A program made the position numbers and the translations under genes. Source: Marine Group I thaumarchaeote (lineage in GTDB: Archaea; Thermoproteota; Nitrososphaeria; Nitrososphaerales; Nitrosopumilaceae). From it: a DNA stretch of 64,000 nucleotides. Shown piece after piece: positions 41,090 to 59,627 of this stretch. Where the stretch lies: assembly GCA_013390745.1 (NCBI GenBank), contig JACASX010000004.1, positions 1 through 64,000 of the forward strand, written 5' to 3'. The notes beneath the pieces are model-generated. The model was not told the origin of the DNA and made no database searches. It saw nothing but the letters and a program-made list of their open reading frames with translations. How positions within the stretch are numbered: the first letter of the stretch is position 1; each line of letters starts with the position of its first letter.

Positions 41090-41224
41090 TTGATATGAAG
41101 ATTTTCAAGAAAGGACTTTTGATGGGAAAACAACCCAAAAATGGTAGTTAAGTATAGATTAACTTACTAATACTAATATTAACTTCTACTTAATATTCAT
41201 ATACGATGTAAACTAACCATATCT

Positions 41225-41434
41225 ATGAAGAATGACTGGAAACAGATTTTCGAAGGGGAGTATCTTGACATTTGGCAAACCCCTAAGGGCAAAGATGGAA
41301 AGAGTGACTTTGTTTTGGCCGTTGGCGGCACACACTTGTTCCTGAATGCTAACACTGTATTTCCCGAGCTAAAGATTGCTACGGACACAGTAAGTCGTGA
41401 AATGTTAAAACCAAACGAGGCGTGCTATCAATGA
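41225..41434 (+). CDS. Unknown small protein, first of a four-gene module
   Basis: 69 residues starting MKNDWKQIFEGEYLDIWQ, with a beta-rich hydrophobic core (FVLAVGGTHLFLNANTVF). No family recognised. It overlaps the next gene by ATGA (41431-41434). AT-rich DNA lies immediately upstream (41150-41220), but no repeat leader, so this module is under a separate promoter. Confidence 0.65.
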   Translation: MKNDWKQIFEGEYLDIWQTPKGKDGKSDFVLAVGGTHLFLNANTVFPELKIATDTVSREMLKPNEACYQ

Positions 41435-42027
41435 GCAAGGCATTACAGGTCTACGATAAGATCGAAGAAAAGGTAGTGGACATACCAGAGGATGAAGTTG
41501 AATCAGTACAGAACACGAGGCGAGTGTATTTTGGCATTCAAAAGAAGGTCTTCGAGGCAAGCACAGTAGGAACTGTCGCCAACATTTCAGTCCGGAGCTT
41601 TATCACTGGACTCCTGCGGTATGGAAAATGGGAAGTTGAGCACAGTTTGAAACAAAACCCAAAACATGGTGAATTTCCCGAAAGGATTTGGGAAATCATA
41701 GAAAACAAGATCATCGACATAGCGGAAGACATAACGAATTCAGAAGACGACAGGGCTGCCATAGCAAAATTCAAAAAACCGTACAAGCAGCTTAGTGACG
41801 CAGAAAAGGAGACTCTGGAAGAGGACTTGGACGATCGATATACTCTTGATGCAATAGCATATTGTCTCATATGCAAAGCGTTAGACCTTTGGACTCCAAA
41901 ATTCTGGAGACTCGATGAAGTTGCAGCCAAGATAGCGGAAGTAGAGAAGGCCGAGTATGAAAAAGAGAAAGCCATAGCGGAAAAAGACAAAGCCAAGGCT
42001 GAAAAAAGAGTGCCGGTGGGGAGTTGA
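41431..42027 (+). CDS. Unknown helical protein with C-terminal EKRVPVGS tail
   Basis: 198 residues. The N-terminal two thirds is mainly helical (EIIENKIIDIAEDI). Residues about 165-188 form a charged coiled coil with repeated A-E-K units. It ends AEKRVPVGS. The same EKRVPVG tail ends the protein at 42753-43256, otherwise unrelated. No family recognised. Start fixed by ATGA overlap with the upstream gene. Confidence 0.65.
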   Translation: MSKALQVYDKIEEKVVDIPEDEVESVQNTRRVYFGIQKKVFEASTVGTVANISVRSFITGLLRYGKWEVEHSLKQNPKHGEFPERIWEIIENKIIDIAEDITNSEDDRAAIAKFKKPYKQLSDAEKETLEEDLDDRYTLDAIAYCLICKALDLWTPKFWRLDEVAAKIAEVEKAEYEKEKAIAEKDKAKAEKRVPVGS

Positions 42028-42033
42028 CAAAAA

Positions 42034-42726
42034 ATGTATGTGTATACAGAAAAAGATCTAGAAAACATTCGAAAGGAGGTATTAGGAAAGATAGCTGATC
42101 AGCGTTATGAACTAGACATAACCAGTTTGGCTGTCAACCCGGGATCAGGTTTTGTGGCTTGGTATCCTACACTTGCAGGTTTACTGAAAGGCAAACTTGA
42201 AAACGTTGATCACGTTCAATGGACAACAGAAGAGGATGGACATTCGACAATTAAAAGTGGCAAAGTTACGTCAAAACATGTGACAGTAAGATTCCAATTC
42301 AGCGATGAGGAGTATCTAAAGACACGGAAGCTTGGAATCAAGAAAAAACTCTACAATGTCGTATCTGCTCTTGATGACGCATTCAATAAATCATTCTTTC
42401 TGTCAGCTTACAGCTTCAAGGCTGCATTTGATGGTAAAGGGCGGGGTGGTCATTCTGTGCAAGGTTGGCATACATCAATTCGAAATTATGTCTTTAACAC
42501 GTGGATCGTAGAAATTGTGGATCATATGATGGGAATAGAACAATGGAAACATCTTGGTGGTGGAAAAATATATCCCAATGTGCCCCCTCCCCCACAGAGG
42601 ATTAGCACCAAGGGAACAAGGTGGCCCATCTCAGCACATGACAGACTTGGAATTGATCTTGACAAGGATGGTAAATTTCCTGACGGTTCTTCAACCAATG
42701 CGCTACATCCACAGATTGTCCCGTAG
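42034..42726 (+). CDS. Unknown protein, 230 aa
   Basis: A soluble protein starting MYVYTEKDLENIRKEVLGKI with an aromatic, Gly-rich middle (GRGGHSVQGWHTSIRNYVFNTW) and a Pro-rich stretch (NVPPPPQRI). It ends with HPQIVP and lacks the EKRVPVG tail. No family recognised. 6 nt after the previous gene, 26 nt before the next. Confidence 0.65.
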   Translation: MYVYTEKDLENIRKEVLGKIADQRYELDITSLAVNPGSGFVAWYPTLAGLLKGKLENVDHVQWTTEEDGHSTIKSGKVTSKHVTVRFQFSDEEYLKTRKLGIKKKLYNVVSALDDAFNKSFFLSAYSFKAAFDGKGRGGHSVQGWHTSIRNYVFNTWIVEIVDHMMGIEQWKHLGGGKIYPNVPPPPQRISTKGTRWPISAHDRLGIDLDKDGKFPDGSSTNALHPQIVP

Positions 42727-42752
42727 GTAGAAAAGGGAGCACCGAATGTAAG

Positions 42753-43256
42753 ATGGCAAAAACAATCAAGTTGAATGAGACCAGCCTGGTTTGCGACAAA
42801 CCACATAACATCAAATGTTGGAAAAAAGGTAAGGAGATTGAACATCCACATCCTATAAAATGGCGAGCCGGTGGTGAGATTGTCGTACTAAAAAGATGGA
42901 AGCTGGAAGAGATACTGGATCCGGACGGTCCTATCAATGACAGTAAGTTCTGGAACTTTAGAAAAAAACCATTCCTCATGGGTCCATTTGTTTGGTGTAC
43001 TCCAGGATTGTGGGTGGAAGAAGCAGGATTTGTCTATGAGGGTGATATAGATGTAAAAATACTGTTTGGTGGTGGCCCATGGGTTCCACATACTTGGAGG
43101 GACTTGAGAAAAGTGCAGGTACAACTTGAAGAAGAGCTTGACAAGTTTGGCTACAAGGATAGGGATCTTATAATTTACAGAACAATCAAAGCCTCACAGA
43201 TCAACTGGGACTCTATTGCAGTTTTTTCTGAAAAAAGAGTACCCGTAGGAAACTAG
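42753..43256 (+). CDS. Unknown protein with C-terminal EKRVPVGN tail
   Basis: 167 residues, Trp-rich, probably beta-rich (FVWCTPGLWVEEAGFVYEGDIDV). It ends SEKRVPVGN, matching the tail of the 198-aa protein two genes upstream. No domain family recognised. Last gene of the 41225-43256 module and convergent with the nuclease-like gene 16 nt away. Confidence 0.65.
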   Translation: MAKTIKLNETSLVCDKPHNIKCWKKGKEIEHPHPIKWRAGGEIVVLKRWKLEEILDPDGPINDSKFWNFRKKPFLMGPFVWCTPGLWVEEAGFVYEGDIDVKILFGGGPWVPHTWRDLRKVQVQLEEELDKFGYKDRDLIIYRTIKASQINWDSIAVFSEKRVPVGN

Positions 43257-43616: not shown

Positions 43617-43678
43617 TTTTCCTCTAGTATTGCATGCAAGGTTCTCATCATATCTCCAAAATATACTGAATTTGCCAT
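43613..43678 (-). CDS. 21-aa leader ORF between repeat 1 and the nuclease gene
   Basis: The first ATG after repeat leader 1 opens a 21-codon frame (MANSVYFGDMMRTLHA...) whose stop overlaps the nuclease gene's ATG (ATGA). Either it is a small protein or it serves translational coupling. Its ATG occupies the position where other repeats start METRKE-type genes. Confidence 0.45.
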   Translation of the reverse strand: MANSVYFGDMMRTLHAILEEK

Positions 43679-43752
43679 ACTCTTACTTCACACCCATATC
43701 AGCTAAGGCTTTTACAGTTTGTAACCAAAAATTTTGGTTGAATTTTGTAAAT
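43679..43752 (-). promoter_or_regulatory. Repeat leader 1 of 7
   Basis: Minus-strand copy, type A: AACCAAAA/TTTTGGTT arms, then TTACA-AAC-TGTAA (43712-43724), AAAGCCTTAGCT and micro-ORF MGVK followed by TAA, 4 nt and the ATG. It directs a leader ORF and the PD-(D/E)XK gene. It is the only copy on the minus strand. Confidence 0.8.
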
Positions 43753-43756
43753 TAAT

Positions 43757-43786: not shown

Positions 43787-44020
43787 ATGGCTGTTCCACT
43801 CACATTTCTGAAGCCTTTTCTAAAAGCTATCAAAGATTTTCTAGATAGTATAAGTTCAGGAATTCGCGGAATTTTTCATGGTGATGATGGTTCTATACCA
43901 GGTATCAGGCCAATTAAAGAAGTTGGAGAAAATATTGGAGAAGAGGTCGGAGAAGAGACACCAGAAATTATTCAGGAGATTATAGGCGAATTCATACTTG
44001 TTGCAATCAAATTCATTTAG
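43787..44020 (+). CDS. Small amphipathic protein, 77 aa
   Basis: Starts MAVPLTFLKPFLKAIKDFLDS, an amphipathic helix, then a Gly-rich linker, an acidic segment (GENIGEEVGEETPEIIQEII) and a hydrophobic end. It might associate with membranes. No family recognised. Its 3' end overlaps the CARF gene by 8 nt (convergent). Confidence 0.5.
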   Translation: MAVPLTFLKPFLKAIKDFLDSISSGIRGIFHGDDGSIPGIRPIKEVGENIGEEVGEETPEIIQEIIGEFILVAIKFI

Positions 44021-44885
44021 TTGGTTTGTAACCAAGTAATGCTGATTTACCCATTGCTGTTATAGAAACTAACGGTTCTTTTTGATCAATAAAATATTCG
44101 TGTCGTGGATATTCTACACCACCTTTTACAGAGTGTTTAGGTACATTGTGTTTTATACTTACTAATCCATCTGCCTCCATTTGATCTAGACGGTTTCGAG
44201 TTGTTTGTTTAGACACTTTATATTTCGTCTCGATTATTTCTTTCAAATCTTTTAGAGTAGCTACACCTTTTCTCGTTTCTTTGGCATTCCAATCTGAATT
44301 TTTAATACTTTGGTTTACTTCAACAGGTTCTTTACTTGTTTCTGGAATGCCCTCCCAGTCAAAAGTTTGTTTGCTGAGAACATCTAGTATTTGTTGATGG
44401 TCTGGATTATTGGCTGATACTGAAAAACGGTTATACTTTGGTGTGGCGATTGGAACAAGATAAGACTTGAGGCCTGGATTTTTATCCTCTCTCAATATAT
44501 AATACGAATCAAGTTTTAGGCTACCAGCAGCCCACATTGAAGCCACTGCCATAATGTTAGTTCCACCAGTTACATTAACAACTATATCGTTAAGTGGATT
44601 TGGATCATCACCGTGTTCTTTTCTCTCAATTTTTGTGATTTCATCAAGAATAGGATGCATCTCAAACGCCCCGGTTGCCGAAAGTTCCCTGAGAATAACA
44701 GTATGACCAATTTTCTCTAAATCTTTCTTTAGATCAACTGCAATTTGTTTTAATGGAAATTCAGAATTATCAGGGCTGTGAATAAGGTATATTTTGTTAA
44801 TTGGTAAATAACTTGGCTCCTTTATTGCTGCCGTCACATGTTTTACATTTTCTCCTATTGGCATGATGTGGATATATCCGTACAT
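44013..44885 (-). CDS. CARF-domain winged-helix regulator
   Basis: 290 residues. Residues 1-180 resemble a CARF (CRISPR-associated Rossmann) domain: a parallel-strand beginning, KIYLIHSPDNS, a regular LKQIAVDLKKDLEKIG helix and the loop VNVTGGTNIMA at 103-110, typical of CARF ligand sites. Residues about 205-275 form a winged helix (VSKQTTRNRLDQMEADGLVSIK). This matches Csa3-type regulators that respond to cyclic oligoadenylate. No CRISPR array or cas gene is in the window. It is divergent to repeat leader 2 and is a candidate to bind the repeat operators. Confidence 0.75.
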   Translation of the reverse strand: MYGYIHIMPIGENVKHVTAAIKEPSYLPINKIYLIHSPDNSEFPLKQIAVDLKKDLEKIGHTVILRELSATGAFEMHPILDEITKIERKEHGDDPNPLNDIVVNVTGGTNIMAVASMWAAGSLKLDSYYILREDKNPGLKSYLVPIATPKYNRFSVSANNPDHQQILDVLSKQTFDWEGIPETSKEPVEVNQSIKNSDWNAKETRKGVATLKDLKEIIETKYKVSKQTTRNRLDQMEADGLVSIKHNVPKHSVKGGVEYPRHEYFIDQKEPLVSITAMGKSALLGYKPTK

Positions 44886-44937
44886 TTTCTACCGTAACCA
44901 ATCAGCTTCAAACTGTTTAAGGTTTTGGCCTGAATTT

Positions 44938-45019
44938 AGGCACAAATTTACAAGATTCAACTATATTTTTCGGTTACAAACTGTAAAAGCCTTAGCTGAT
45001 ATGGGTGTGAAGTAAGAGT
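44938..45019 (+). promoter_or_regulatory. Repeat leader 2 of 7
   Basis: Type B copy: begins AGGCACAAATTTACAAGATT, then a degenerate AAC...GGTT pair, operator-like TTACA-AAC-TGTAA (44974-44986), AAAGCCTTAGCT and micro-ORF MGVK. It ends at the ATG of the 133-aa gene. Confidence 0.82.
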
Positions 45020-45421
45020 ATGGAAACAAGAAAAGAAGACAGCAAACCAGAAAGTCAATCACTTTCAGGATATGAAAATGATAAGACCTGGAGAGGTGAG
45101 AAACCAACAGAAAAGCAATTAGTTTTTCTAAAAACTCTAGGATATGTTGGGCCCAAACCACAAACACGTGGTGATGCTTCTGACCTAATTGATGAAGGTT
45201 TGAAGGTGACAAAGAATGTTCCCAAGGAACGAATGATGTCACAACTTGTGTTTGTCGATGTTCCATTATTTGATTCTAAAAAGAGAATTTTGGCGCAAGT
45301 ACAAATCAACATGCATCTCTCCGAAGGATTTCAGATACAAAGAGACTGGGATTATGATGGAGGAACAATTATGGTTCTAGTAAAGTGGGAATTGAAACCA
45401 ATGGAGGAAGAAGTGCAATGA
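45020..45421 (+). CDS. Phage-type LGY/AS-domain protein with C-terminal ssDNA- or RNA-like fold domain
   Basis: 133 residues. After a charged start METRKEDSK, residues about 31-60 (PTEKQLVFLKTLGYVGPKP, then ASDLIDEGLK) match a short helical domain found in phage and plasmid proteins. The C-terminal part, LSEGFQIQRDWDYDGGTIMV and KWELKP, is paralogous to the end of the 97-aa protein at 52158-52451. Function unknown. Followed by a 42-aa gene with ATGA overlap. Confidence 0.6.
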   Translation: METRKEDSKPESQSLSGYENDKTWRGEKPTEKQLVFLKTLGYVGPKPQTRGDASDLIDEGLKVTKNVPKERMMSQLVFVDVPLFDSKKRILAQVQINMHLSEGFQIQRDWDYDGGTIMVLVKWELKPMEEEVQ

Positions 45422-45546: not shown

Positions 45547-45569
45547 TGAACAATTAACATTTACGCATA

Positions 45570-45644
45570 GAATTACAAAATTCAACCAAAATTTTTGGTT
45601 ACAAACTGTAAAAGCCTTAGCTGGTATGGGTGTGAAGTAATAGT
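45570..45644 (+). promoter_or_regulatory. Repeat leader 3 of 7
   Basis: Type A copy with perfect AACCAAAA-T-TTTTGGTT, TTACA-AAC-TGTAA at 45599-45611, and micro-ORF MGVK. It ends at the ATG of the first GHKL gene and so drives the 45645-50927 operon. Confidence 0.82.
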
Positions 45645-47027
45645 ATGGAACAAATAATGAAGATTGATGTATTACATGCATTAGAAGATCTTGTAAGAAT
45701 CTATGATTCGAGTGCAAAGATGGTTTTTAGAGAAGCCACTGATAATGCGTTAGATATTCTGGCAACAGAAATTGATATTAAAATTGGAAAAGATAGCAAT
45801 GGAAAATACTGGATTTCATTTGAGGATAACGGTTCTGGAATGGATAAAAAAACATTCGAGTCCTATCATGTAATAGCAAAATCTACAAAAACTTATGGTA
45901 AATCAATAGGATTTGCAGGAATTGGCGCCAAAGTATATTTGGCCGTAGGCGATTTTGTCAGGATCTTTACAGAAACATGCTGTGGTAATGAATCTTGGTC
46001 ATCAGAGATGTATAGAAAAGGAAATGATCTAATGCATTCAACTCCAAAAAAATCCTCTAGAAAAAAGAATGGAACTTACTATAAGGTGTTGATAAATTAT
46101 ACAGACTATCTAGAGCTTCAACAAAGTTTGGAAGATTGGGTAAAAGTGTTTTGTAATAATGCCTTACTAAATGGAATAAAAATTTCTGTTAATGGTAAAT
46201 CAGTTAAACCCTGGATACCAGAAACTAGTAAAACGAAAAGCTATATTGTAATGGCTGAGAACAAAAAATTCCCATGCAAACTTCATCTATGCAAAAATGA
46301 TTTACATAAATCAAAACGTAATATTGAATATCATATCAATAATCATTTTGTAAAAGGTAGACGTCCTGATTATTATGATCAAGTTAAACTAGAATTTAGG
46401 AACAAATGGTTTGTTTCAGTAGAAGCATACGAAATAGCTGATTATCTAAAAACAGACAAAAGTGGATTTAGAGGAGGCTGGTGGAAATATGGTGATGCTA
46501 TTGAAAAGAAAATTTTTAAAGAATTACAAAAATTAGGTCTAATTTCAACTCAAACCAAAAAGGCGGCAGCGCCACAATCATTAGCAAAAGCATTTGAGAA
46601 GCTTTTGAAAGGAAAATTTGCTTTTCTAAACCCAAACTCGCTAATTGGAGGTTTAATTGGTACAAAACGACCTGGGCCAATATGTGGTCCAAGTCCAAGG
46701 CCACCATCAAAACCTGGCTCAAAATCACCTAGACCAGGAACATCAAAATCAGGTTTTTCGGTTGTAGTCAGTTATCGTCAAAATGATAAAAGAGAAGGAT
46801 ACTTAGATCCAGGAAGTCATCAACTTGTAATAAATTCAGGACATGCCCTAGCCATCTCAACAGGACAAGACAAAAAGGCCTGGAGTTATCATTGTACCAA
46901 AGTTGTTGTATTGATACTTTTGGAAGAATATAACAAAAAGAATCCGATTTCAATTTCAAAATTTGTTACTACTCAATCTGAATTCATGGATGCAGTTCGT
47001 GCGGAGGTAAAAGATTGGAAACTATAA
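45645..47027 (+). CDS. GHKL ATPase (Hsp90/MORC-like), 460 aa
   Basis: The N-terminal ATPase has REATDNALDI (E30, N34), EDNGSGMD (D61-G65) and GKSIGFAGIGAKVY (85-98), all Bergerat-fold motifs. The middle (about 150-300) may be a transducer; residues 340-375 are a Pro/Ser-rich linker; the last 80 residues form another small domain. It is not a topoisomerase, gyrase or histidine kinase. It begins a four-gene ATPase/nuclease operon and overlaps the next gene by TAATG. Confidence 0.8.
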   Translation: MEQIMKIDVLHALEDLVRIYDSSAKMVFREATDNALDILATEIDIKIGKDSNGKYWISFEDNGSGMDKKTFESYHVIAKSTKTYGKSIGFAGIGAKVYLAVGDFVRIFTETCCGNESWSSEMYRKGNDLMHSTPKKSSRKKNGTYYKVLINYTDYLELQQSLEDWVKVFCNNALLNGIKISVNGKSVKPWIPETSKTKSYIVMAENKKFPCKLHLCKNDLHKSKRNIEYHINNHFVKGRRPDYYDQVKLEFRNKWFVSVEAYEIADYLKTDKSGFRGGWWKYGDAIEKKIFKELQKLGLISTQTKKAAAPQSLAKAFEKLLKGKFAFLNPNSLIGGLIGTKRPGPICGPSPRPPSKPGSKSPRPGTSKSGFSVVVSYRQNDKREGYLDPGSHQLVINSGHALAISTGQDKKAWSYHCTKVVVLILLEEYNKKNPISISKFVTTQSEFMDAVRAEVKDWKL

Positions 47028-47593
47028 TGGAAGGAAAAATTCCTGTACGTATCACTTGGATGAAAAATGAAAAAGGAATCATAGAATCTGAAGTTTTAAT
47101 AGGTTTAGACGACGTCTTTAGTGAAGGAATTTCTATATCAAAGAAGATTGAAAAATTCAAAAAAAGATATTACCAATTTCTTAGTGATGTAAAAAAATTA
47201 GCAAAGAAAAATAAACAAAAGAAGGCGAGCGACTATTGGAAACTTAGTCGTCTATTAATTGAGTTTAACAGTAAAATTGAGAAGGAATTTTTCATAATAA
47301 ACTACATTGAAGCAATTTCGAAAGACATGAAAGGATTTCACCTCTCAGTGACTCAAGTTGATAGATTATTTCAGTTTGCAAACTATTTCAAAAAGAGTGA
47401 GATTGATGATGCAATATCATATTCGCATTATCGTGAACTAACTGATAAAAGAAACCGACTAGTAGAACTTGATTTATTTGAACGGGAAAAAAAGAAGCTC
47501 CTTGAATTAAGCGATAAAGGAAAACTGCCGAGTCATAAACCAGAATATAGGAATTATCTCAACAAGATTACAAGAGGTGACGTAACCGCATGA
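47027..47593 (+). CDS. Helical middle protein of the GHKL operon
   Basis: 188 residues, highly charged and mostly helical: IEKFKKRYYQFLSDVKKLAKK, then KKLLELSDKGKLPSHK. An N-terminal strand block begins IPVRITWMKNEKGI. No family recognised. It sits between two GHKL ATPases, overlapping each (TAATG in, 4 nt out), so it probably bridges or scaffolds them. Confidence 0.65.
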   Translation: MEGKIPVRITWMKNEKGIIESEVLIGLDDVFSEGISISKKIEKFKKRYYQFLSDVKKLAKKNKQKKASDYWKLSRLLIEFNSKIEKEFFIINYIEAISKDMKGFHLSVTQVDRLFQFANYFKKSEIDDAISYSHYRELTDKRNRLVELDLFEREKKKLLELSDKGKLPSHKPEYRNYLNKITRGDVTA

Positions 47594-49977
47594 GCAAGCA
47601 AATCAATATATCCAAAGTCAAAGTTTTATTCAATAAAATACTAAGATGTGAGACAGAAGCTGAAGTCATCGAAGTCTTAACTAAAGAGGGCTATTGGAAT
47701 GATGGTAGAGCTTGGCGCTCATTTGGTGGAATTGATTCTAATTATTCAATTATTGGTGGCCAATCATCAAATCCTGTTGCCGCACTTGGAGAAAAAGAGA
47801 TAAACTCTGTAGACACTGTACTAGAAAACGCATGTTTAGAGGCAGGAATTGATCCAAGATCTAAAGACGCACCTAAAAACATGCAGCATGCATCAGAAAT
47901 CTTTTTTGGAATTCCACATGGAGAATTAGAGAATGCTGATAAATCAACTATACAAAAATTAGCAGATAAAATACATCTTTTCTCCTCAGGCAAAAAAGGC
48001 TATGACATGTGTGTATCCATTGCAGATCAAGGAACAGGTCAAACGCCCAATAATATGCCAAAAACAATTCTGTCCTTGCCAGGTGTAAAGGAAACTAACA
48101 AAACAGGAATTACATTCCAACAAGGAATTTTTAATATGGGTGGTTCAGGTAGTCTTACATTTTGTGGTAACTATGGAATTTCACTAATAATAAGTAAAAG
48201 AAATCCAAAGATACTAGATCCTAATCACAATCCGGATGATGAGAAATGGGGCTTTACTGTTACTCGAAAATTTATGCCAAACGGTAGAAAACAAAACCCA
48301 AGATATCAATATCTTGCTCCACATGGAGAAGTTCTTAGATTCGAATCAGATTCTATAAACGTACTACCAGGTAAATATCCCACTAAATATTCAAAACCAC
48401 TAGACTATGGTACTTGCATAAAATTATTTGAATACAAATTGAATGGCCTTAAAACAGCTATTAATTTAGATTTGAATTATGCTCTAAGCAAACTTTTCTT
48501 CCGTTTGGCAATACCAATTAGGATTGAAGAACGAAGAGAAGGATTTAATGCAAATTCACCAGAAGCAATTCTTTCTGGTATGGCATACAGACTTCACAGT
48601 GACAGAAGCGAAAACTTGGAAAAGACACTGAAGAGTGGTTTGTTAAATGTTGATCAGGTTGGAGAAATGCCAATTGCAGTTTATGTCTTCAAGCATAAAA
48701 TGAATAGAGAAAAATGGCAAAAAGGTTCAGAAATTTCAGTTATTCTAAACGGTCAAAAACATGCACATTTTCCTAAATCTCTATTCAAACGACAATCTGT
48801 AGGACTTTCATGGCTAGCGGATGACTTGATGGTAATTCTTGATGCCACTGAAATTAACAGAATGGCACAGACCAATATTTTTATGAATAATCGAGAGAAT
48901 GCTCGTGACACTGTAGAGTGGCGAAATATTGAAAAATCACTTGAGAAATTTTTGAGTGAAAACCAAATACTGCAAGATCTAGCAAAAAAAAGACGTGATG
49001 AACTATTACTCTCAGAGGTAAATGACGATAAGCTTACTGATGATATTTTTTCAGAACTTTTGACAGACGCAAGTAATCTTCATGATTTCTTTCCTAAAGG
49101 AACGAGATTTAAAAAGAAAACAGATTTTGATTGGGTTAAGATACCTGGTAAATTCAAAGGAGAGTTTTATCCAACATTTTTTAGATTAGAAAGTAAGACG
49201 AAAAGAATTACAATCAAATGTCCAAAAAATGGATATGTTTATGTTAATTTTGAAACAGATGTTGAAGATGACTATCTAGGTAGAAGTAAACACAAAGGTA
49301 AATTCACATGTACTAACAAAAGCATATACCGTCATCTAAGCTTGTTTTCTGGTATTGCAAAATTAAAACTACAAGCACCAAAACATGCAAAGCTTGGACA
49401 AAAAATAGAATTTCAAACAAAATTAAGAGACAGTCACACAAAACAAGAATGGAAGAATATAATCACACTTAGGATCGTTGATCCAGAAAAACGAAAGAAG
49501 TCACAGCCAAGTAAGCATCATACACCTAAACCACACGATAGAAAGAAAATAAAAAATGGTGGTTGTGGTGAACAAGAAGATACCGGAAAACCAAAAATCA
49601 TTCTAGTGAGAGATAGCGAACAAGCCTATGAAGATCTTGAAATGGATAAAAACACTGCTGTAATTACCAGGCTTGATCAGAATGATATAACATTCTTTGT
49701 CAACGGGGATAATAATTTCTTGGTAAGACAACGCCAAATAGAGAAAAAAGAAAATCCAAAATTTCTAAACGAGATTTTTAGACTTACCTTAGGTTATCAA
49801 TGCTTTGCACTTTATTTGAAATACAAAGAGAAACAAAAGAATAATCCAGAAGAGGTAGACATTGCAAAAAAAGTTGATGATGCGTCAGAAGGTTTAGCGA
49901 TGACAATATTTCCTGTAACCACACAACTCTCTCAGATTACACATTCATACACAAATTCAAAAAGTTTGGGAGACTAG
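47590..49977 (+). CDS. Large GHKL-type ATP-binding protein, 795 aa
   Basis: The N-terminal Bergerat fold has ALGEKEINSVD (E68, N72, D75), ADQGTGQTP (D146-G150) and a glycine loop IFNMGGSGSLTF (180-191). A long second part includes RKFMPNGRKQNPRY. Residues about 520-640 look beta-rich, then a basic region and a helical end. The N-terminal pattern recurs in large uncharacterised ATPases found near phage-defence genes, as far as I recall; that is inference. Genes either side are co-transcribed. Confidence 0.75.
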   Translation: MSKQINISKVKVLFNKILRCETEAEVIEVLTKEGYWNDGRAWRSFGGIDSNYSIIGGQSSNPVAALGEKEINSVDTVLENACLEAGIDPRSKDAPKNMQHASEIFFGIPHGELENADKSTIQKLADKIHLFSSGKKGYDMCVSIADQGTGQTPNNMPKTILSLPGVKETNKTGITFQQGIFNMGGSGSLTFCGNYGISLIISKRNPKILDPNHNPDDEKWGFTVTRKFMPNGRKQNPRYQYLAPHGEVLRFESDSINVLPGKYPTKYSKPLDYGTCIKLFEYKLNGLKTAINLDLNYALSKLFFRLAIPIRIEERREGFNANSPEAILSGMAYRLHSDRSENLEKTLKSGLLNVDQVGEMPIAVYVFKHKMNREKWQKGSEISVILNGQKHAHFPKSLFKRQSVGLSWLADDLMVILDATEINRMAQTNIFMNNRENARDTVEWRNIEKSLEKFLSENQILQDLAKKRRDELLLSEVNDDKLTDDIFSELLTDASNLHDFFPKGTRFKKKTDFDWVKIPGKFKGEFYPTFFRLESKTKRITIKCPKNGYVYVNFETDVEDDYLGRSKHKGKFTCTNKSIYRHLSLFSGIAKLKLQAPKHAKLGQKIEFQTKLRDSHTKQEWKNIITLRIVDPEKRKKSQPSKHHTPKPHDRKKIKNGGCGEQEDTGKPKIILVRDSEQAYEDLEMDKNTAVITRLDQNDITFFVNGDNNFLVRQRQIEKKENPKFLNEIFRLTLGYQCFALYLKYKEKQKNNPEEVDIAKKVDDASEGLAMTIFPVTTQLSQITHSYTNSKSLGD

Positions 49978-50322
49978 ATGATGATTAGAAGACTGAGAAA
50001 AATAGTGAGTAGAAAGAAGGATAATGCATTGAAAGATGAAGTGTTCACGTATTATACAGCGTTTTATGATCCATCCGCCAAGGAACCACATTGTAATTGT
50101 AAAATATGTCCAGGTCCAGAAAACAATTTAGAATTATTAACAATAGATCACAAAAGAAAAAGGACAAAGAAAGATAATCTTAGTGGAACATCTTTATACA
50201 AATATCTGAAAGAGAATGATTACCCAGACGGTTATCAAGTATTATGTTTTAACTGTAATTTTGGCAAAGGGCTCTACGGAAGGTGTCCGCATTTATGGAA
50301 GGACAATAGAAATGGCAGTTAG
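49978..50322 (+). CDS. HNH endonuclease
   Basis: 114 residues: CNCKIC at 35-40, TIDHKRKR, then YQVLCFNCNFGKG. The two CxxC pairs bind structural zinc and the DH of TIDHK is the HNH catalytic part. It could cut DNA or RNA as the effector of the GHKL pair. It begins at the base after the large ATPase's stop; a further in-frame ATG is 3 nt later. Its stop overlaps the membrane gene. Confidence 0.8.
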   Translation: MMIRRLRKIVSRKKDNALKDEVFTYYTAFYDPSAKEPHCNCKICPGPENNLELLTIDHKRKRTKKDNLSGTSLYKYLKENDYPDGYQVLCFNCNFGKGLYGRCPHLWKDNRNGS

Positions 50323-50602
50323 TAATTGGATTCTCTATATTGGAGTTTTTCTCTGCGCCACCGGATTTGGTGTAGTTATTGGTGCAATCTTCATTTTTTA
50401 TTGGGGTATTAAAAAATTGGAAGAATCTAAACAGGGTAATGCTTACACCGAAAATAACTATACAGCTAACATAGATCATTATCATGCAGATGATGGCGGA
50501 TCTAATAATACAGATAATAGTGAACCATGGAAAACCACAGCAAATCCTAACGGTACATCAAGAGATTATATCTCAAAGGATACTTTGGAGGGAAACCGAT
50601 GA
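50312..50602 (+). CDS. Single-span membrane protein, 96 aa
   Basis: One membrane helix (about 6-29, ILYIGVFLCATGFGVVIGAIF) and a hydrophilic Asn/Asp/Thr-rich tail. It lies downstream of the HNH gene in the same transcript, with its ATG inside the HNH stop region. It could be a membrane anchor for the system or an unrelated passenger. Confidence 0.6.
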   Translation: MAVSNWILYIGVFLCATGFGVVIGAIFIFYWGIKKLEESKQGNAYTENNYTANIDHYHADDGGSNNTDNSEPWKTTANPNGTSRDYISKDTLEGNR

Positions 50603-50646
50603 ATGCCTATCTCCCCATTTTAAAAAAGGAGGATGTGAAATGTTAA
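50599..50646 (+). CDS. 15-codon bridging micro-ORF
   Basis: Starts by ATGA overlap with the membrane gene's stop and ends by overlap with the next ATG, MNAYLPILKKEDVKC. Its DNA contains AAGGAGGATGTG, the Shine-Dalgarno of the following gene. It probably serves translation coupling rather than a protein function. Confidence 0.4.
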   Translation: MNAYLPILKKEDVKC

Positions 50647-50927
50647 GTGATAGAGAGAAATTCGTACTACATTTCGCGGCTATGATAACCATCGCAAGGA
50701 TGGCTGAGATGCCACGTAGTGACAAACTCATTCACAAAATGATAGAGGATGTAAGACGTAATAGATGCCGTTCGATAGCTCCAGAAGACGTACATGAATT
50801 ACTTGAAGAAATCAATGAAGAATTGGTATCAGGAAAACTCATGCTCAAACACGTGATGGAAGATACAATTTGGAGTATGACAGGAGAACGCCCAAACAAG
50901 AATACTAATTGGGATGATATGAAATGA
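50640..50927 (+). CDS. Small helical protein, 95 aa
   Basis: Start fixed by GGAGGATGTGAA before ATG 50640. Helical, MLSDREKFVLHFAAMITIARMA, with SIAPEDVHELLEEINEELVSG. No family recognised. Last gene before repeat leader 4, so presumably end of the GHKL operon. Confidence 0.6.
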   Translation: MLSDREKFVLHFAAMITIARMAEMPRSDKLIHKMIEDVRRNRCRSIAPEDVHELLEEINEELVSGKLMLKHVMEDTIWSMTGERPNKNTNWDDMK

Positions 50928-50946
50928 GAGAAAATTGTAACGTTCT

Positions 50947-51028
50947 AGGCACAAATTTACAAGATCTAACTACAATTTTTGGTTAAAAACTGTAATAGCC
51001 TTAGCTGATATGGCTGTGAAGTAATAGT
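50947..51028 (+). promoter_or_regulatory. Repeat leader 4 of 7 (most divergent)
   Basis: Begins AGGCACAAATTTACAAGATC. The operator-like site is TTAAA-AAC-TGTAA (50983-50995), one mismatch from the others. The micro-ORF reads MAVK, intermediate between the MGVK and MAGK copies. It drives 51029-54370. Confidence 0.8.
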
Positions 51029-51316
51029 ATGAAACAACAAACTTGTTCTCAAATGGGTGGCGACCTAACCGCTAAGTACGTTAGTGCTTTGATGGCTTTT
51101 TGTGAATTCATGTATGCAGCGGAGAAATCCGATTTATCTCTGCAACAAAAGAATTCAGAGCCATTTGAACTCTCATTACCTGACGATCCACCACGAAAGG
51201 TAAGGCCAACGAGAGGTTTGCCGTTCGACAAGAGTCCACTATACTTTGGTAAGTATATCAGAGTACATGATAGACTTTGTCACAGACTTGTCACCAGTAA
51301 GGTGAGAGACAATTGA
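51029..51316 (+). CDS. Hypothetical protein, 95 aa
   Basis: First gene after repeat leader 4, starting MKQQTCSQMGGDLTAKY. Pro/Arg-rich middle and one Cys-His cluster near the C-terminus (DRLCHRL). No family recognised. It overlaps the next gene by 4 nt. Confidence 0.55.
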   Translation: MKQQTCSQMGGDLTAKYVSALMAFCEFMYAAEKSDLSLQQKNSEPFELSLPDDPPRKVRPTRGLPFDKSPLYFGKYIRVHDRLCHRLVTSKVRDN

Positions 51317-52161
51317 GTCTCAAAACTTCTCTCTGTATGATTTGCGAAAAGGCTCGCAATGATCACAGTGAAAAACTATGGAAATTGCACGAGTCCCTGC
51401 AAAACAATCCGGAACTCAAAACAAGAGATCCAGCTATGGTCAAAAGGCTAATAGAATGGGAAGCAATTCTATGGCCTTCAGCCTGTAGAACTCCAATCGA
51501 GGTCATTGAAGGTACCGTAACCCTAGAACAACTAGGCGAAAAATGGGCATCAATGTCAAGAAGCGAACGTGGATATCTATTACGAAGAGTTAACTTCGAA
51601 GAATATCTCATGGGACAAACCTCGATGCCAAAATTGTCCTGGGTTCAGCTAGGGATTTGTCAAGTTGCTGAATACAGCGAATATCACAACCCAGAAAATC
51701 TTGGTAAATCTTGGACCAAATTTTCAGACGAAGACCAGAAGAAGATCCTTCGAGCCTACAACTGGAACTTCTCTTACATCTACTATGATGTAGAGAAAAA
51801 TTGTGATGTACTCTATAGTACATTCCTAAACAAGTATCAAGCAACAGAAAAGTTGATTGATCAAGATGACTCTGTCTGCGACAACAGATGGTGCACATGC
51901 CGCGAAAAAATAGTACCATGTAGTCAATGTGGTCTATCCATGGGTAAGTCTGAAACGGAACACTCTGATGTTTTGGGTGAAATGTGCCTAAAATGTTTCA
52001 GAGAGATGACTGATCAGACACATGAATGGTATGACAAGACACCCACTACAAAGATCCTCAAAGAAGGTGTGAGGATTCGTCAATATCGTGATTCCAAGGG
52101 GAAGTTGCATAAGTTGTATGGCAATTTTACTGACGCCCATCATTGTGGTGAGATGCAATGA
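51313..52161 (+). CDS. Cysteine-rich zinc-binding protein, 282 aa
   Basis: Starts at TTG within the previous stop region. An opening CMICEKA, then a helical domain to about residue 190, and a zinc-finger tail: CDNRWCTCREKIVPCSQCG followed by CLKC. It ends with a basic, aromatic segment. The many cysteines suggest two zinc sites and a nucleic-acid or protein-binding role. No family assigned. Overlaps the next gene by ATGA. Confidence 0.6.
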   Translation: MSLKTSLCMICEKARNDHSEKLWKLHESLQNNPELKTRDPAMVKRLIEWEAILWPSACRTPIEVIEGTVTLEQLGEKWASMSRSERGYLLRRVNFEEYLMGQTSMPKLSWVQLGICQVAEYSEYHNPENLGKSWTKFSDEDQKKILRAYNWNFSYIYYDVEKNCDVLYSTFLNKYQATEKLIDQDDSVCDNRWCTCREKIVPCSQCGLSMGKSETEHSDVLGEMCLKCFREMTDQTHEWYDKTPTTKILKEGVRIRQYRDSKGKLHKLYGNFTDAHHCGEMQ

Positions 52162-52451
52162 ATAGGTTTGAAGAAAGTAAAATCGCAGAGCATGATGGAC
52201 GTCTTGATGAGATGACAAGAGAGATTCACGACCTAAGGATAGAAAAAGAAGAACCGGAAAAAGAAATGACAAGGGTAAGGGTAGTTGCCGTAGAATTCAA
52301 GAAAGAAAAATACAGATTGGGCGAAGATGAGGTCAACAGAAATCTCTCTGATGGGTTTGTTATACAGAAGGAGTTTCAGACAGAATCTGGCGTCGTGATT
52401 TTCATGACAAAATGGGAGAAACCAAAAAAGGTGGATGGGGCGATGAACTAA
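52158..52451 (+). CDS. Small coiled-coil protein paralogous in its C-terminus to 45020-45421
   Basis: 97 residues. The first 45 form a charged helix (DEMTREIHDLRIEKEEPEKE). The end, NLSDGFVIQKEFQ, VIFMTKWEKPKK, matches the end of the 133-aa protein driven by leader 2 (LSEGFQIQRDW, KWELKP). A shared module under two different leaders. ATGA start, TAATG at the end. Confidence 0.6.
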   Translation: MNRFEESKIAEHDGRLDEMTREIHDLRIEKEEPEKEMTRVRVVAVEFKKEKYRLGEDEVNRNLSDGFVIQKEFQTESGVVIFMTKWEKPKKVDGAMN

Positions 52452-52714
52452 TGGATAATATGGTTGAATATGTAGCCAATCATTTTTTCTATAGTTCACT
52501 AAAAAAAAATTCAGGTACAATAGAGGAACTTGCCAAGGAGATTTCTAAAATGGAACAGGATAAAATTTGTGAACTTCTTTGCATACTTGGCGGAATCATT
52601 TCCGGACATATTGAATATTCAGAAAAATTATCGCCAGATTTGGAAGCTCTGAATAAGAAATGGGCCTCAAATATGAATAAAATTCCTAAATCAGAAAAGG
52701 AGGATTTGAAATAA
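52451..52714 (+). CDS. Small helical protein, 87 aa
   Basis: Start by TAATG overlap (52449-52453). Helical throughout: MDNMVEYVANHFFYSS, IEELAKEISKMEQDKI. Acidic. No family recognised. It may be an accessory factor; 1 nt before the next gene. Confidence 0.55.
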   Translation: MDNMVEYVANHFFYSSLKKNSGTIEELAKEISKMEQDKICELLCILGGIISGHIEYSEKLSPDLEALNKKWASNMNKIPKSEKEDLK

Positions 52715-52715
52715 A

Positions 52716-53240
52716 ATGTCAACTAGATTTACCCAAAATAAGCAAAATGGATTACTAGCGGAAAAAATTGCCAGAGAAGATTTTATTGAACAAGGGTTTA
52801 GTATTAAAAAAACCGGTATTGGTAGCGATTTTATTGCATTTAAAAAAACGCCAGGAAAGAAGGAACATCAAATCTACGTTGAAGTAAAATACAACAAGGC
52901 GGAACTTTCACCTTTACAAAAAAAGAAAAGATCCGCAATGAAGAAGAGTGGAATAGACTACATAGTGTATAGAGTAACTTCCAAATTTATGGAAAATTAC
53001 AAAAAAGAGAATGGAATTGAGGATAACATCATTTCATCAATAAATCTTGGAGAGCCATTTACTAATAGATACATAGCATCCAAAAATGAAAATTTTAGAA
53101 TAATTTTACCCTGGAAATGCCCAAATTGTAAAAGAAACTCAGCCTCAACAATTTCGGAATTAATCAAGAATTTTGGTTTAAGAGCAATGGGAAAAAATGG
53201 AACAGTTAGGAATCAATCATGGTGTAGAGAATGCAGATGA
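52716..53240 (+). CDS. PD-(D/E)XK-like nuclease with zinc ribbon
   Basis: 174 residues. GIGSDFIAFK and IYVEVKYNKAE give the D and ExK of a restriction-endonuclease-like fold (about residues 36-56). LSPLQKKKRSAMKKSG is typical of VRR/Mrr-like neighbours. The C-terminal CPNCKRNSA and WCRECR form a zinc ribbon. Likely a DNA-processing nuclease of the element; the target is unknown. Overlaps the TFB-like gene by up to 10 nt. Confidence 0.65.
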   Translation: MSTRFTQNKQNGLLAEKIAREDFIEQGFSIKKTGIGSDFIAFKKTPGKKEHQIYVEVKYNKAELSPLQKKKRSAMKKSGIDYIVYRVTSKFMENYKKENGIEDNIISSINLGEPFTNRYIASKNENFRIILPWKCPNCKRNSASTISELIKNFGLRAMGKNGTVRNQSWCRECR

Positions 53241-54370
53241 ATGAGTCTTATTCATATTCACGCCCAACAGATCAACTTTTAGGTTTTGATGACGTAGATA
53301 GAAGTTATCGAGTTGATCATATGACGGATGAAGATTGCCCAATTTGCAACAAAAAATTAAAACCTAAAACAGTGTATGATGCAGGCAGGACAGATAGTGT
53401 GTGTGCAAACTGTCTCATGTATGTTATTCCTGATCAAATTATCCCTGAAACTGACGATACACCTTCTGAAGCAGCAATATCTCCAGATGAGATACCTATT
53501 GCACCACTAACAAAATACGACCCAAACAAAGAAGAATTTGGAGAAAAGATAGACAAATCAGATGAAGATACCAAAGCAAAACAAGAACGCGTTGATAAAT
53601 TTGGTAGTTCATCTATGATGGGCACGAGAGATGCAAAAGGAAAACCTGTCAAATCTGTTGGAAAAAGAATCGTAAATAAAAAAACTGGCAAACAAATGAG
53701 CCTTTATCAACGTCTGGCTGTGTTGGATCGAAGGATCCCAACTAGCAAACATGATCGGGAGTGGGCGTTCTGGCGCAGAACAGTTATGAAAATAATTGAA
53801 GAAGTACTTCCAGGTATAGCAAATAAATATGTTAGAGATGATGTTTATACCCTCTTTAAAAAATGTTTAAGAAAAAAATTATTGCATGGTAGAAAATTCA
53901 CAATTTTCCTAGCTAGTTGTATACAGATAGAAACGAAAAGATCTGGAAAGGATGTTAGTGATTATGAAAAAATTGATGAAAAAATTCAAGGGGATTGGAA
54001 AAAAAAAGTTACGCAATATAATCATCTAATTCAAAAGAAATGTATTTTGAGCGAAAACCCTGACACAAATTTGCCACATAGTAGCCCTGAAAAATATGTT
54101 GAAGAAATAACAAATGCGGTTTGTACTGCAATGAAAATTGATAACCATGAAGAAATTTCTTCTGCTGCTTCGAAGATCTTGAAGAATGTTGAAGTGCTTG
54201 GAAAAAAACCGAAGAACTTGGCAGCAGCTGCTGTTTATCTTTCCTGTAGAGAACATGAATATGAAATTGACATATTCAAAATGGTTAAAATTGTAGAAAC
54301 ATCAAGTGCCACAATTAAGGCGATAGCAAGAGAACTAAATGATAAATTGAGACTAGATATATCCTTATGA
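53231..54370 (+). CDS. Diverged TFB-like transcription factor
   Basis: 379 residues. The N-terminal ribbon is C36, C39, C58, C61 (CPIC and CANC). An acidic, Pro-rich linker follows (72-125), then a B-finger-like FGSSSMMGTRD and SVGKRIVNKKTGKQMSL. Two cyclin-like repeats follow; the second has NLAAAAVYLSCREHEYEI, characteristic of TFB. It is much longer than normal TFB (about 300). Start is ATG 53231 or 53237. Likely directs RNA polymerase to element promoters. Confidence 0.75.
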   Translation: MQMNESYSYSRPTDQLLGFDDVDRSYRVDHMTDEDCPICNKKLKPKTVYDAGRTDSVCANCLMYVIPDQIIPETDDTPSEAAISPDEIPIAPLTKYDPNKEEFGEKIDKSDEDTKAKQERVDKFGSSSMMGTRDAKGKPVKSVGKRIVNKKTGKQMSLYQRLAVLDRRIPTSKHDREWAFWRRTVMKIIEEVLPGIANKYVRDDVYTLFKKCLRKKLLHGRKFTIFLASCIQIETKRSGKDVSDYEKIDEKIQGDWKKKVTQYNHLIQKKCILSENPDTNLPHSSPEKYVEEITNAVCTAMKIDNHEEISSAASKILKNVEVLGKKPKNLAAAAVYLSCREHEYEIDIFKMVKIVETSSATIKAIARELNDKLRLDISL

Positions 54371-54383
54371 AGTTGATATACAC

Positions 54384-54416
54384 GATCACATTTTTAATTG
54401 ATTTAGTGCCGTGATC
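54384..54416. promoter_or_regulatory. Inverted repeat around a TATA-like box
   Basis: GATCAC (54384-54389) and GTGATC (54411-54416) flank TTTTTAATTGATTTAG. The TATA-like segment is about 27 nt from the ATG at 54422, fitting a leaderless transcript. A repressor spanning the promoter is a reasonable guess. Confidence 0.4.
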
Positions 54417-54421
54417 AAACA

Positions 54422-55858
54422 ATGAATCGTGCAGCTGAGCTATTCGAAGAATTATCGAAGGAATTGTTATCCAAACTAGGATATCATATTGTGAAAGAAG
54501 ATTTTGATATGCGTGATGCAGTAGATGCAGAAACTGTTGATTTGTGTGTGGATTTTAAAGATGAGTTATTTTTACAGCCAGCATACTCGCCAAAAGGAAT
54601 TACTTTTGTTGAATGTAAGGAATCTATAGGTAGCAACCAAAAACCATTAGATGATCTTGAACAAAGCATCAAGCATGCAAACGAAGACGAGTATCATATA
54701 AAAAGACTTGATGGGAAAAAAGTAACTGGTGGTTTATTATTGATCAATCAAAAAGCAACTCAGTTTGATAGTGATGTAATAAATAACGCAAAGTCTAAAG
54801 GATATTATCTGTGGGACCAAAGCAGAATTTTCTTTTACGCAATGAAGGTGTTTGGTCACAGCGTCCTTGAAAATTGGGTAAGTCAAAACAGGTTAGGAAT
54901 TGTTCTAAACGAAGAAATTATGAAAAACCAATTTCATCCTGAAATGTTTCACACTACAGTTTTCGTTGGAGTGAGATATGGTGAGCAGTTAGATAATGTT
55001 GAAGTGTATTTTTCTTATTATGTTGACTGTCTAAAAAGTCCAACGGAACTAGACAGTCAGCATGATGCATTACACACCGAAAATGTCAAGATAATACTAG
55101 ATGATGTTTATCATAGACTTGAAGAAGTCAATAAAAAATATTATCCACGTCTTCAAAAAAGTGTAACTATTGAAATCCATTCTCTTTCTGGTTTTACAAA
55201 GGATGCAGAAAATAATGTCAAACTTTATTCTAAACATCAAAATGATTGGTCCAACGTTAATGCATTATCACCAAAAGTAGATGAGCATACACTATTCAAG
55301 TATGCAACAATTCCATGGGAAGCTGTAATGGATTTTGCATTTTCAAAAAGAACGGGAAGAAATACAAAAAAACGTGATCAGGTTGATGATGAATTACTAA
55401 GAATAGAAAAACTATTCACTAAAGAATTTGAGAATGGTGTTAGAGATGGCCACATTAAAGATCCATTTACGGAACATAGTTTTAGAAATAAGAATAATGG
55501 TAGTGATACAATAGCTGGTTACAAACCAATACTTGTGGCAGAGTTAACAGAAAAAACACCAATTCATCAACGCTTACTTATCTTTTCTAGAACTAAGTTA
55601 AAGGAACCAAAAATTAATGAAATTAAGAATATAATAATGGAAATTAAATCAAAACAAGACTTTCAATATACCTGGATAGGATTAATGTCTGGTTCTGGAT
55701 TTTCGTGGGAAGCTATTGAATATAACAAATCTTTCAATGAACCAGGAATTGGGTTTGGCCTTGTTGATGCAGTTACTAAGAAACTTTTTGTTAACAAGGA
55801 AACTAGTGAAGGTAAAAAACTAAATCAGATGTTTCTTTCTGAATGCATCACTTCCTAG
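54422..55858 (+). CDS. PD-(D/E)XK-like protein of unknown function, 478 aa
   Basis: The N-terminus (AAELFEELSKELLSKLGYHIVKE, then TVDLCVDF and GITFVECKES) reads like an Mrr/PD-(D/E)XK nuclease with D in VDLCVD and ExK in VECKES. The remaining 350 residues are unassigned alpha/beta with a basic stretch (KRTGRNTKKRD). It is separate from the repeat-led operons. The HEPN gene follows 42 nt later. Confidence 0.6.
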   Translation: MNRAAELFEELSKELLSKLGYHIVKEDFDMRDAVDAETVDLCVDFKDELFLQPAYSPKGITFVECKESIGSNQKPLDDLEQSIKHANEDEYHIKRLDGKKVTGGLLLINQKATQFDSDVINNAKSKGYYLWDQSRIFFYAMKVFGHSVLENWVSQNRLGIVLNEEIMKNQFHPEMFHTTVFVGVRYGEQLDNVEVYFSYYVDCLKSPTELDSQHDALHTENVKIILDDVYHRLEEVNKKYYPRLQKSVTIEIHSLSGFTKDAENNVKLYSKHQNDWSNVNALSPKVDEHTLFKYATIPWEAVMDFAFSKRTGRNTKKRDQVDDELLRIEKLFTKEFENGVRDGHIKDPFTEHSFRNKNNGSDTIAGYKPILVAELTEKTPIHQRLLIFSRTKLKEPKINEIKNIIMEIKSKQDFQYTWIGLMSGSGFSWEAIEYNKSFNEPGIGFGLVDAVTKKLFVNKETSEGKKLNQMFLSECITS

Positions 55859-55900
55859 GGGTAATATACTAGTAATTTTAAAATTGTTGAGGTTTTGTGC

Positions 55901-58018: not shown

Positions 58019-58033
58019 TCAACTGTGTAATTT

Positions 58034-58115
58034 AGGCATAAATTTACAAGATTTAACTATATTTTTCGGTTACAAACTGTAAAAGCCTTAGCTGATATGG
58101 CTGGCAAGTAATAGT
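58034..58115 (+). promoter_or_regulatory. Repeat leader 5 of 7
   Basis: Type B copy, AGGCATAAATTTACAAGATT, operator-like TTACA-AAC-TGTAA at 58070-58082, micro-ORF MAGK. It ends at the 50-aa gene and drives the TFB operon 58116-60419. Confidence 0.82.
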
Positions 58116-58268
58116 ATGGAAATAAGAAAAGAAAACGAAAAGGCTGGCGAACCTACCGCCGTAATCAACCACGAAAAGTGGTTTTTTGATAATGTTAGAA
58201 ATAACGAAGAGGAAACCTGGTTCCAGGATTATCATCGCAAAGTCAGAACAATAGAGGTTGCCGCATGA
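58116..58268 (+). CDS. 50-aa leader gene of the TFB operon
   Basis: Starts MEIRKENEKAGEPTAV, sharing the charged N-terminus of other post-repeat genes (METRKE). It is soluble, acidic and aromatic. It ends with ATGA overlap to the TFB gene. A small regulatory protein or translation-coupling leader; no family. Confidence 0.5.
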   Translation: MEIRKENEKAGEPTAVINHEKWFFDNVRNNEEETWFQDYHRKVRTIEVAA

Positions 58269-59179
58269 CACAAAATGATAATTTAGTTCAAAAGTGTGCA
58301 AGTTGCGGTACGCGTAATTTTGTCACAGATAATGAAACAGGTGAGATATTTTGTAAAAGATGTGGGTATGTAATCCCTGAACAAGATAACGAAATTAATT
58401 CAATTCCATATAATGTAGAGGAATGTAAAACTGGATCACCAACCTCCCTTGCAAAACATGACATGGGATTATCAACAGTCATTGGCTCAACAAAAACAGA
58501 CGCCACGGGAAAACCACTCTCAACATCCATGAAAAATCATGTAAAAAAATTAAAACTCCATGATGGTAGAAGTTTAGGTAATTCATCTGATCGAAGTCTA
58601 AAAATTGCATTTAATTTTCTTTGGAGATTAAAGGACAAGCTTACACTTTCTAACATTGTTGTAGATGATGCGGCATATATTTACAGAAAAGTAGTTGAAA
58701 AAAACCTGGTCAGAGGAAGATCAGTCACTGGTATGATGTCCGCAGCAACATATGCAGCGTGTCGCAAGAATGGAATACCAAGAAATCTTAAGGATTTTGC
58801 ACAGGTTGGAAATGTAAAACGAAAAGATGTTGCAAGATGCTATAGAATTCTTCTAAGGGAATTAGATCTACGAATGCCAGTTACGGATTCTATTCAATGC
58901 ATACCACGCATTGCAAGTGGAATTGGAATTTTAGAAAAAACAAAACAAGCTGCAATTAAAATTTTAAAGATAGTATATGAAAATGGAATGGCAGCCGGAA
59001 AAGATCCTATGGGGCTTGCCGCAGCTGCATTATACTATGCATGTTTAGAAAATGGTGAAAATGTAACACAAAGAGTAATTTCAAAGTCATCAAATGTAAC
59101 AGAGGTTACAATCAGAAATCAGTATCATGGATTAAAAAAAATGCACATCAAGAAACATTCCGAGGGGAAACAAAAATGA
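58265..59179 (+). CDS. tfb: Transcription initiation factor TFB
   Basis: 304 residues, canonical: zinc ribbon C11, C14, C30, C33 (CASC and CKRC), B-reader region SLAKHDMGLSTVIGS, and two cyclin folds with VRGRSVTGMMSAATYAACR and GLAAAALYYACLENGENVTQ. TFB binds TBP-TATA and recruits RNA polymerase. Placement inside the repeat-led element suggests an element-specific factor. Overlaps the next gene by 4 nt. Confidence 0.92.
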   Translation: MTQNDNLVQKCASCGTRNFVTDNETGEIFCKRCGYVIPEQDNEINSIPYNVEECKTGSPTSLAKHDMGLSTVIGSTKTDATGKPLSTSMKNHVKKLKLHDGRSLGNSSDRSLKIAFNFLWRLKDKLTLSNIVVDDAAYIYRKVVEKNLVRGRSVTGMMSAATYAACRKNGIPRNLKDFAQVGNVKRKDVARCYRILLRELDLRMPVTDSIQCIPRIASGIGILEKTKQAAIKILKIVYENGMAAGKDPMGLAAAALYYACLENGENVTQRVISKSSNVTEVTIRNQYHGLKKMHIKKHSEGKQK

Positions 59180-59523
59180 GTCTCTTAAAAAAAATGGATT
59201 CAGTGATGTTCAAAATTTTTCAAATTATGAATAAAATTAGCAAGTTTTCAAATCAACTAGCAGAATTTAGTTCATCTCCAGATTATGATAAGAAAAAAAC
59301 AAAAAGAAAAGACAAACACAAAAAACATCTTGATAAACTTGAGCAAAAGAAAAAAAGACTTCAGATAGAGATTGACAACATTAAGAAAAAGAGAGGTAGT
59401 AAAAAAGAAAAGAAAAAACTGCGAAAGAAAACCTCTACCGAGTCAGAAATTTTAGGCGGTTTCGACTACAAGCGCATAGGCGACGGAATGTTGAATCAGA
59501 CTGGGCATAACGATGAGGTGTAA
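59176..59523 (+). CDS. Lys-rich coiled-coil protein, 115 aa
   Basis: A strongly basic coiled coil (KKKTKRKDKHKKHLDKLEQ and further KK/EK repeats at about 40-90). It could bind nucleic acid or act as a scaffold. Ends in a hydrophilic Gly/Asn tail. Co-transcribed with TFB. Confidence 0.55.
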   Translation: MSLLKKMDSVMFKIFQIMNKISKFSNQLAEFSSSPDYDKKKTKRKDKHKKHLDKLEQKKKRLQIEIDNIKKKRGSKKEKKKLRKKTSTESEILGGFDYKRIGDGMLNQTGHNDEV

Positions 59524-59623: not shown

Positions 59624-59627
59624 GACT

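Follow-up and report, generated by a model that had tools for sequence, protein, structure and literature searches.

How two proteins with unrelated bodies, encoded in one small gene cluster of a marine group I thaumarchaeote, came to end in the same tail, EKRVPVG(S/N), is the question raised by this locus. The window, i.e. the whole stretch of 64,000 nucleotides that was analysed, lies on contig C4 of a draft genome (labelled G000), and the cluster in it has on its left a leucyl-tRNA synthetase gene, identified by sequence inspection, and a DUF2299 gene. On the + strand the cluster is formed by a 69-aa ORF, a 198-aa protein ending in AEKRVPVGS, a 230-aa ORF and a 167-aa protein ending in SEKRVPVGN, with a 4-nt overlap followed by gaps of 6 and 26 nt (Table 1). 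An earlier note, made from the window alone, had placed both tails correctly, had described the two bodies as otherwise unrelated and had pointed out that the tail codons differ (gtg ccg gtg ggg in the 198-aa gene, gta ccc gta gga in the 167-aa gene), and all of this is confirmed. The window has 173 mechanical ORFs with a length of 60 aa or more, and no other pair of them shares a 5-mer within the last 12 residues.

The cluster has a sole conserved leader, the block upstream of the 69-aa gene, which is promoter-like and may act as a promoter. The 69-aa gene occurs in four of the 31 genomes compared in the genus, the same four that carry the 198-aa gene; homologues of the 198-aa protein are present in four of 250 genomes of the family, all of them within this genus; and the 230-aa and 167-aa proteins are found in G000 and one relative (G002) only. 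Searches of Pfam, PHROGs, PADLOC and NCBIfam gave no credible family for the cluster proteins, except TPR for a gene of G002, an Rfam search returned nothing relevant, and relatives of the 198-, 167- and 230-aa proteins are absent from IMG/VR and phage records. The sole viral pattern match, L034, lacks surroundings like those of the cluster and is probably a chance match. The same locus is present in G002 (C39), G004 (L009) and G024 (L010), which are marine group I thaumarchaeote single-cell genomes, and in a further relative, G008 (L066).

Table 1. Features of the cluster and its right-hand surroundings, in window positions.
Feature	Position	Strand	Remarks
Conserved block upstream of 69-aa gene	41143..41224	+	About 85-93% identity among G000, G002, G004 and G024
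69-aa ORF, first in cluster	41225..41434	+	No tail; 4-nt overlap with next gene
198-aa protein	41431..42027	+	ORF; helical, Lys/Glu-rich; C-terminus AEKRVPVGS
Tail-coding repeat, internal copy	42001..42027	+	No hairpin; near-identical to 3' end of G002 paralogue
230-aa ORF	42034..42726	+	No tail; G002 counterpart 97% identical
167-aa protein	42753..43256	+	C-terminus SEKRVPVGN; G002 counterpart 95% identical
Tail-coding repeat, terminal copy	43230..43256	+	24/24 nt identical to G002:C39:10354; 28/28 to G004 copy outside zinc-ribbon ORF
Inverted repeat over tail and stop codon	43237..43262	+	GAG.ACCC.TAG-GAAA-CTAGGGTCTC; then T-rich run to 43273
Second repeat	43671-43753	-	
290-aa protein	44013-44885	-	
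Second repeat	44934-45039	+	
Second repeat	45555-45663	+	
Plasmid-/virus-like island	45645-60419		
Second repeat	50938-51041	+	
Second repeat	58029-58133	+	
Second repeat	60427-60512	+	
Second repeat	63834-63937	+	

In the relatives, the tail proves to be encoded by a DNA repeat of 24-28 nt, AAAAAAGAGTRCCCGTAGGAAACT(AGGG), of which nine copies are known, two in the window and seven at the same locus in the three relatives G002, G004 and G024, all on a single strand and each at the 3' end of a gene. A search of the 31 genomes of the genus at up to three mismatches found no further true copy, the scattered matches with two or three mismatches not resembling the repeat, and a scan of genome contigs returned the three known loci plus seven scattered bacterial matches. 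Four copies are carried by G002, at the ends of the 198-aa orthologue, of an adjacent tandem paralogue (54% identity), of the 167-aa orthologue and of a 14-codon mini-ORF, MFSEISEKRVPVGN, whose start ATG overlaps the stop of the preceding TPR gene (TAATG). G004 has two, one in the 198-aa protein and one just past the stop of a 73-aa zinc-ribbon ORF (L009:7288-7315), and G024 has a single tail copy. A 24-nt block, AAAAAAGAGTACCCGTAGGAAACT, is identical in the 167-aa gene of the window, in the 198-aa gene of G002 and next to the zinc-ribbon gene of G004; between the first and the last of these the identity takes in the next four bases (AGGG), and in the array-end copies it runs beyond the stop codon. 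Since identical DNA stands at different genes, the tail came to be shared by DNA copying. The earlier note had read the differing codons as a sign of selection on the protein and not of DNA duplication, an argument that does not survive the comparison, as the 198-aa orthologue of G002 reads gta ccc gta gga aac and is identical over 24 nt to the 167-aa tail of the window.

The copy beside the zinc-ribbon ORF is instructive in that it lies outside the protein, because relatives of this ORF align up to IPKSK, three residues short of its stop, and in at least one relative the protein ends soon after; a one-base change could bring the repeat in frame. This copy shows no mismatch to that of G000 and three to the gene-end copy 1 kb away in its own genome, and is therefore not a fresh local duplicate; the zinc-ribbon gene probably arrived with its own repeat. 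Between the untranslated copy and the 69-aa leader, G004 also holds an apparent gene remnant (L009:7333-7446, FELPYGYRSETILNRYGDCLIEYHGPNQELWKPEKRCT), with no relative in the fetched loci.

The different codons of the two tails within the window are explained by an exchanged gene end. The last codons of the 198-aa gene of the window (GAC, GCT and gtg ccg gtg ggg) are those of the G002 paralogue rather than those of the orthologues, GAC and the ccg, gtg and ggg codons occurring in no 198-aa orthologue, and the tails differ because this gene bears the 3' end of the paralogue. G002 still carries the paralogue beside the orthologue and G000 does not, which we read as a probable loss of the paralogue, deleted when the 3' ends of the two genes recombined. 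The presence of the paralogue's end on the 198-aa gene of the window shows that this joint is a site of loss or gain of entire genes. Simple tandem duplication, instead of a mobile cassette, could also account for the paralogue itself.

The repeat occurs in two forms, which differ in their capacity to fold. The hairpin of the terminal copy in the window has a predicted stability of -12.0 kcal/mol, within the top 0.2% of local 32-mers, and a hairpin is found in all five terminal or non-ORF copies (the four at array ends and the zinc-ribbon copy of G004) and in none of the four internal ones, which lack the 3' arm. In the hairpin-forming copies the block is followed by CTAGGG, and the stem is predicted to close on a GNRA-type loop, GAAA or GAAG; across copies the stability ranks in the top 0.2-1.4% of neighbouring 32-mers and is mildly unusual when set against whole-sequence shuffles (z -0.9 to -1.7). 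A T-run follows the four array-end hairpins and is missing after the zinc-ribbon copy. Array-end copies, then, keep the hairpin and T-run, and internal copies have lost the hairpin.

The explanation that best fits these observations, to which we assign a probability of about 0.6, is that a short, recombination-prone DNA repeat, specific to this locus, marks where each gene unit, or cassette, of a small variable operon ends on its 3' side, and that the tail is what its translated part gives. Each unit would be formed by one or two genes, each ending in the repeat; new genes would come in through recombination at a repeat and end up flanked by two copies, in the manner of 3'-end integration sites, and gain or loss of units at the repeat would leave the ends of the neighbours intact. 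Where the repeat falls in frame, a gene would gain the new C-terminus EKRVPVG(S/N) with its stop, and once translated the tail may be retained by protein-level selection, a step for which support is moderate. Direct repeats of 24-28 nt at gene 3' ends flank the inner units in G000, G002 and G004, and insertion at the repeat is what we infer. Units present in G002 are missing from G004 and G024, and the paralogue from G000, but the flanks past the terminal hairpin differ in every genome, and the four genomes offer no direct pair of an empty and a filled site for each cassette. The surroundings fit an exchange hotspot, with defence-type genes that differ by genome. Against this reading, no gene in the units matches an integrase or casposase, and the tyrosine recombinase family PF00589 is absent from G000, G002 and G004, which are draft genomes and 63-86% complete. 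A different role for the terminal copy, as att site of the large element to its right, is unsupported, since no second copy was found in the G000 assembly.

In Thaumarchaeota, 14 of 68 mapped integrated elements lie in the 3' ends of protein-coding genes, their att/TSD repeats are short (median 17 bp over all targets) and tandem re-use of one site is known (PMC6563490). As 3'-end integration with short repeats and tandem re-use is common in this phylum, the principle is already known. Ca. Nitrosopelagicus brevis, one of the reference species of marine group I, was reported to have no identifiable integrated elements (PMC6563490). The present locus resembles the integrated elements of Thaumarchaeota (PMC6563490) in its short direct repeats at the 3' end of coding genes, in the re-formation of the C-terminal codons and stop, and in the tandem re-use of the site; it differs in that a unit comprises one or two small genes, among which no integrase, casposase or virus/plasmid hallmark occurs, and in that the inserted genes receive the tail from the repeat as well. 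A likeness to integron cassette arrays, including those of archaeal integrons, is also evident, for small genes in the same orientation are each followed by a related, hairpin-capable repeat, and genes are gained and lost (PMC9668308). Unlike integrons (PMC9668308), the repeat is 24-28 nt long and the hairpin is limited to terminal or non-ORF copies; no pair of attC cores (RYYYAAC/GTTRRRY) lies within -80 to +110 of any copy, and no integron integrase IntI, which is optional in CALINs, was found with PF00589 as the wider family in these incomplete genomes. The locus thus has the layout of a cassette array and fails as an integron on attC cores and integrase.

A different view is that the tail is primarily a C-terminal recognition peptide, for docking, sorting, processing or degradation, that serves a partner in the same cell, DNA copying being only the route by which it spread. 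Seven full-length proteins with either body, five from the 198-aa family and two from the 167-aa family, all keep the tail, so that a search of related genomes turned up no full-length body without it. Its form throughout is EKRVP(V/L)G, and the change of V to L, tolerated in two genomes, speaks against a tag. In the internal coding copies all changes within EKRVPVG are synonymous, and constraint on the peptide is therefore supported. Between the G002 paralogues the tail shows four synonymous and no nonsynonymous differences, against 18 and 131 for the remainder of the protein (Fisher p = 3e-4). The counts between G000 and G002 are 4:0 in the tail and 6:26 in the body (p = 0.004), but here the tail difference already used is counted a second time, so the two comparisons are not independent; the 167-aa pair gives counts too low to be informative (p = 0.18). 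In this small and related sample, the peptide appears with moderate confidence to be under constraint as well, and protein function accounts for synonymous-only changes more readily than a mere site of recombination does. Adenine-directed variation of the diversity-generating retroelement type was rejected, since the A-rich E, K and R codons never vary. Of the earlier proposal of protein-level selection, the part that concerns the tail itself is upheld by the mainly synonymous changes and by its retention, and the part that excluded DNA duplication is not.

The mini-ORF of G002 also suits a tag, as if the tail were produced as a free peptide. Three other proteins of the cluster (69 aa, 230 aa and TPR) nevertheless lack the tail, one copy in G004 is not translated with its gene, and the identity of array-end copies continues past the stop codon; no tail-bearing protein is known outside this locus, and the AlphaFold models of the two proteins, built from shallow alignments, are too poor to judge (pLDDT 47 and 39). 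Cargo-loading peptides of encapsulins and similar signals are short extensions, common to unrelated proteins, at the extreme C-terminus. The present case differs from them, as no shell gene is recognised in the cluster, the repeat also occurs untranslated, and it is restricted to one locus. A tag as the primary identity of the tail is consequently rather unlikely, and docking is a live, secondary possibility. A more ambitious and distinctly speculative idea, which we consider improbable, is that this streamlined marine archaeon has a minimal cassette system that works without an integrase and in which one 25-nt sequence would be at once a recombination joint, a selected C-terminal peptide that enrols captured proteins into a common complex or pathway, and a hairpin at the 3' end of the array.

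The terminal hairpin with its T-run may act as a terminator, and the repeat as a whole could chiefly serve as a portable terminator of transcription, or as a hairpin at RNA 3' ends, that was duplicated with gene ends and codes for a peptide only incidentally. This would suit the folding of the terminal or non-ORF copies, most of them with a T-run, and their local stability; it sits badly with the four internal copies, which have lost the hairpin yet kept the peptide through synonymous changes, with a consensus terminator scan that called no site at the hairpin of the window, and with the zinc-ribbon copy and its missing T-run, and is very improbable. Chance or convergent evolution of the same C-terminus, for which the dissimilar bodies and the different codons within the window might be adduced, can be set aside, given a composition-based probability of 2e-9 for EKRVPVG at a given place and the 24-28 nt of identical DNA in different genes of related genomes.

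The neighbourhood of the locus varies between genomes. In G024 the single tail copy is directly followed (L010:8088-13824) by a 1012-aa helicase and DrmC- and DrmB-like genes (PADLOC 1e-32 and 2e-73), a DISARM-like set, and in G008 a 1045-aa type IIG restriction-methylation protein (L066:1295-4432) replaces the module after DUF2299. On the right-hand side of the module, G000 and G004 have CARF genes, and G004 a UvrD-like helicase as well; the 290-aa protein of the window has an HFX_2341/CARF-like N-terminus and a predicted winged helix, its best PADLOC match being CARF3 (3e-23). The plasmid-/virus-like island encodes an HATPase, a 795-aa protein of no known family, a 707-aa coiled-coil-like protein, a VRR-NUC nuclease, two TFIIB-like proteins and a J-domain protein, and two stretches of it match the sequence that follows the module on the right in G004 at about 80% identity. 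A second repeat family, of about 80-105 nt and containing CAAACTGTAAAAGCCTTAGCTGATATGGG, is present in seven copies, several of them just upstream of the start codons of unrelated genes, and among the 31 genomes of the genus it is found in G000 only; it is possibly a shared leader or promoter, or a cassette boundary, of the element right of the cluster.

The repeat shows how unrelated proteins can gain an identical C-terminus by DNA insertion and not by convergent selection, so that shared tails need to be checked at the DNA level before they are taken for targeting signals. Should the tail have a function too, each captured gene would receive its tag automatically on entering the operon. With this locus the marine group I lineage also gains a small island that resembles a cassette array and has defence genes in neighbouring genomes.
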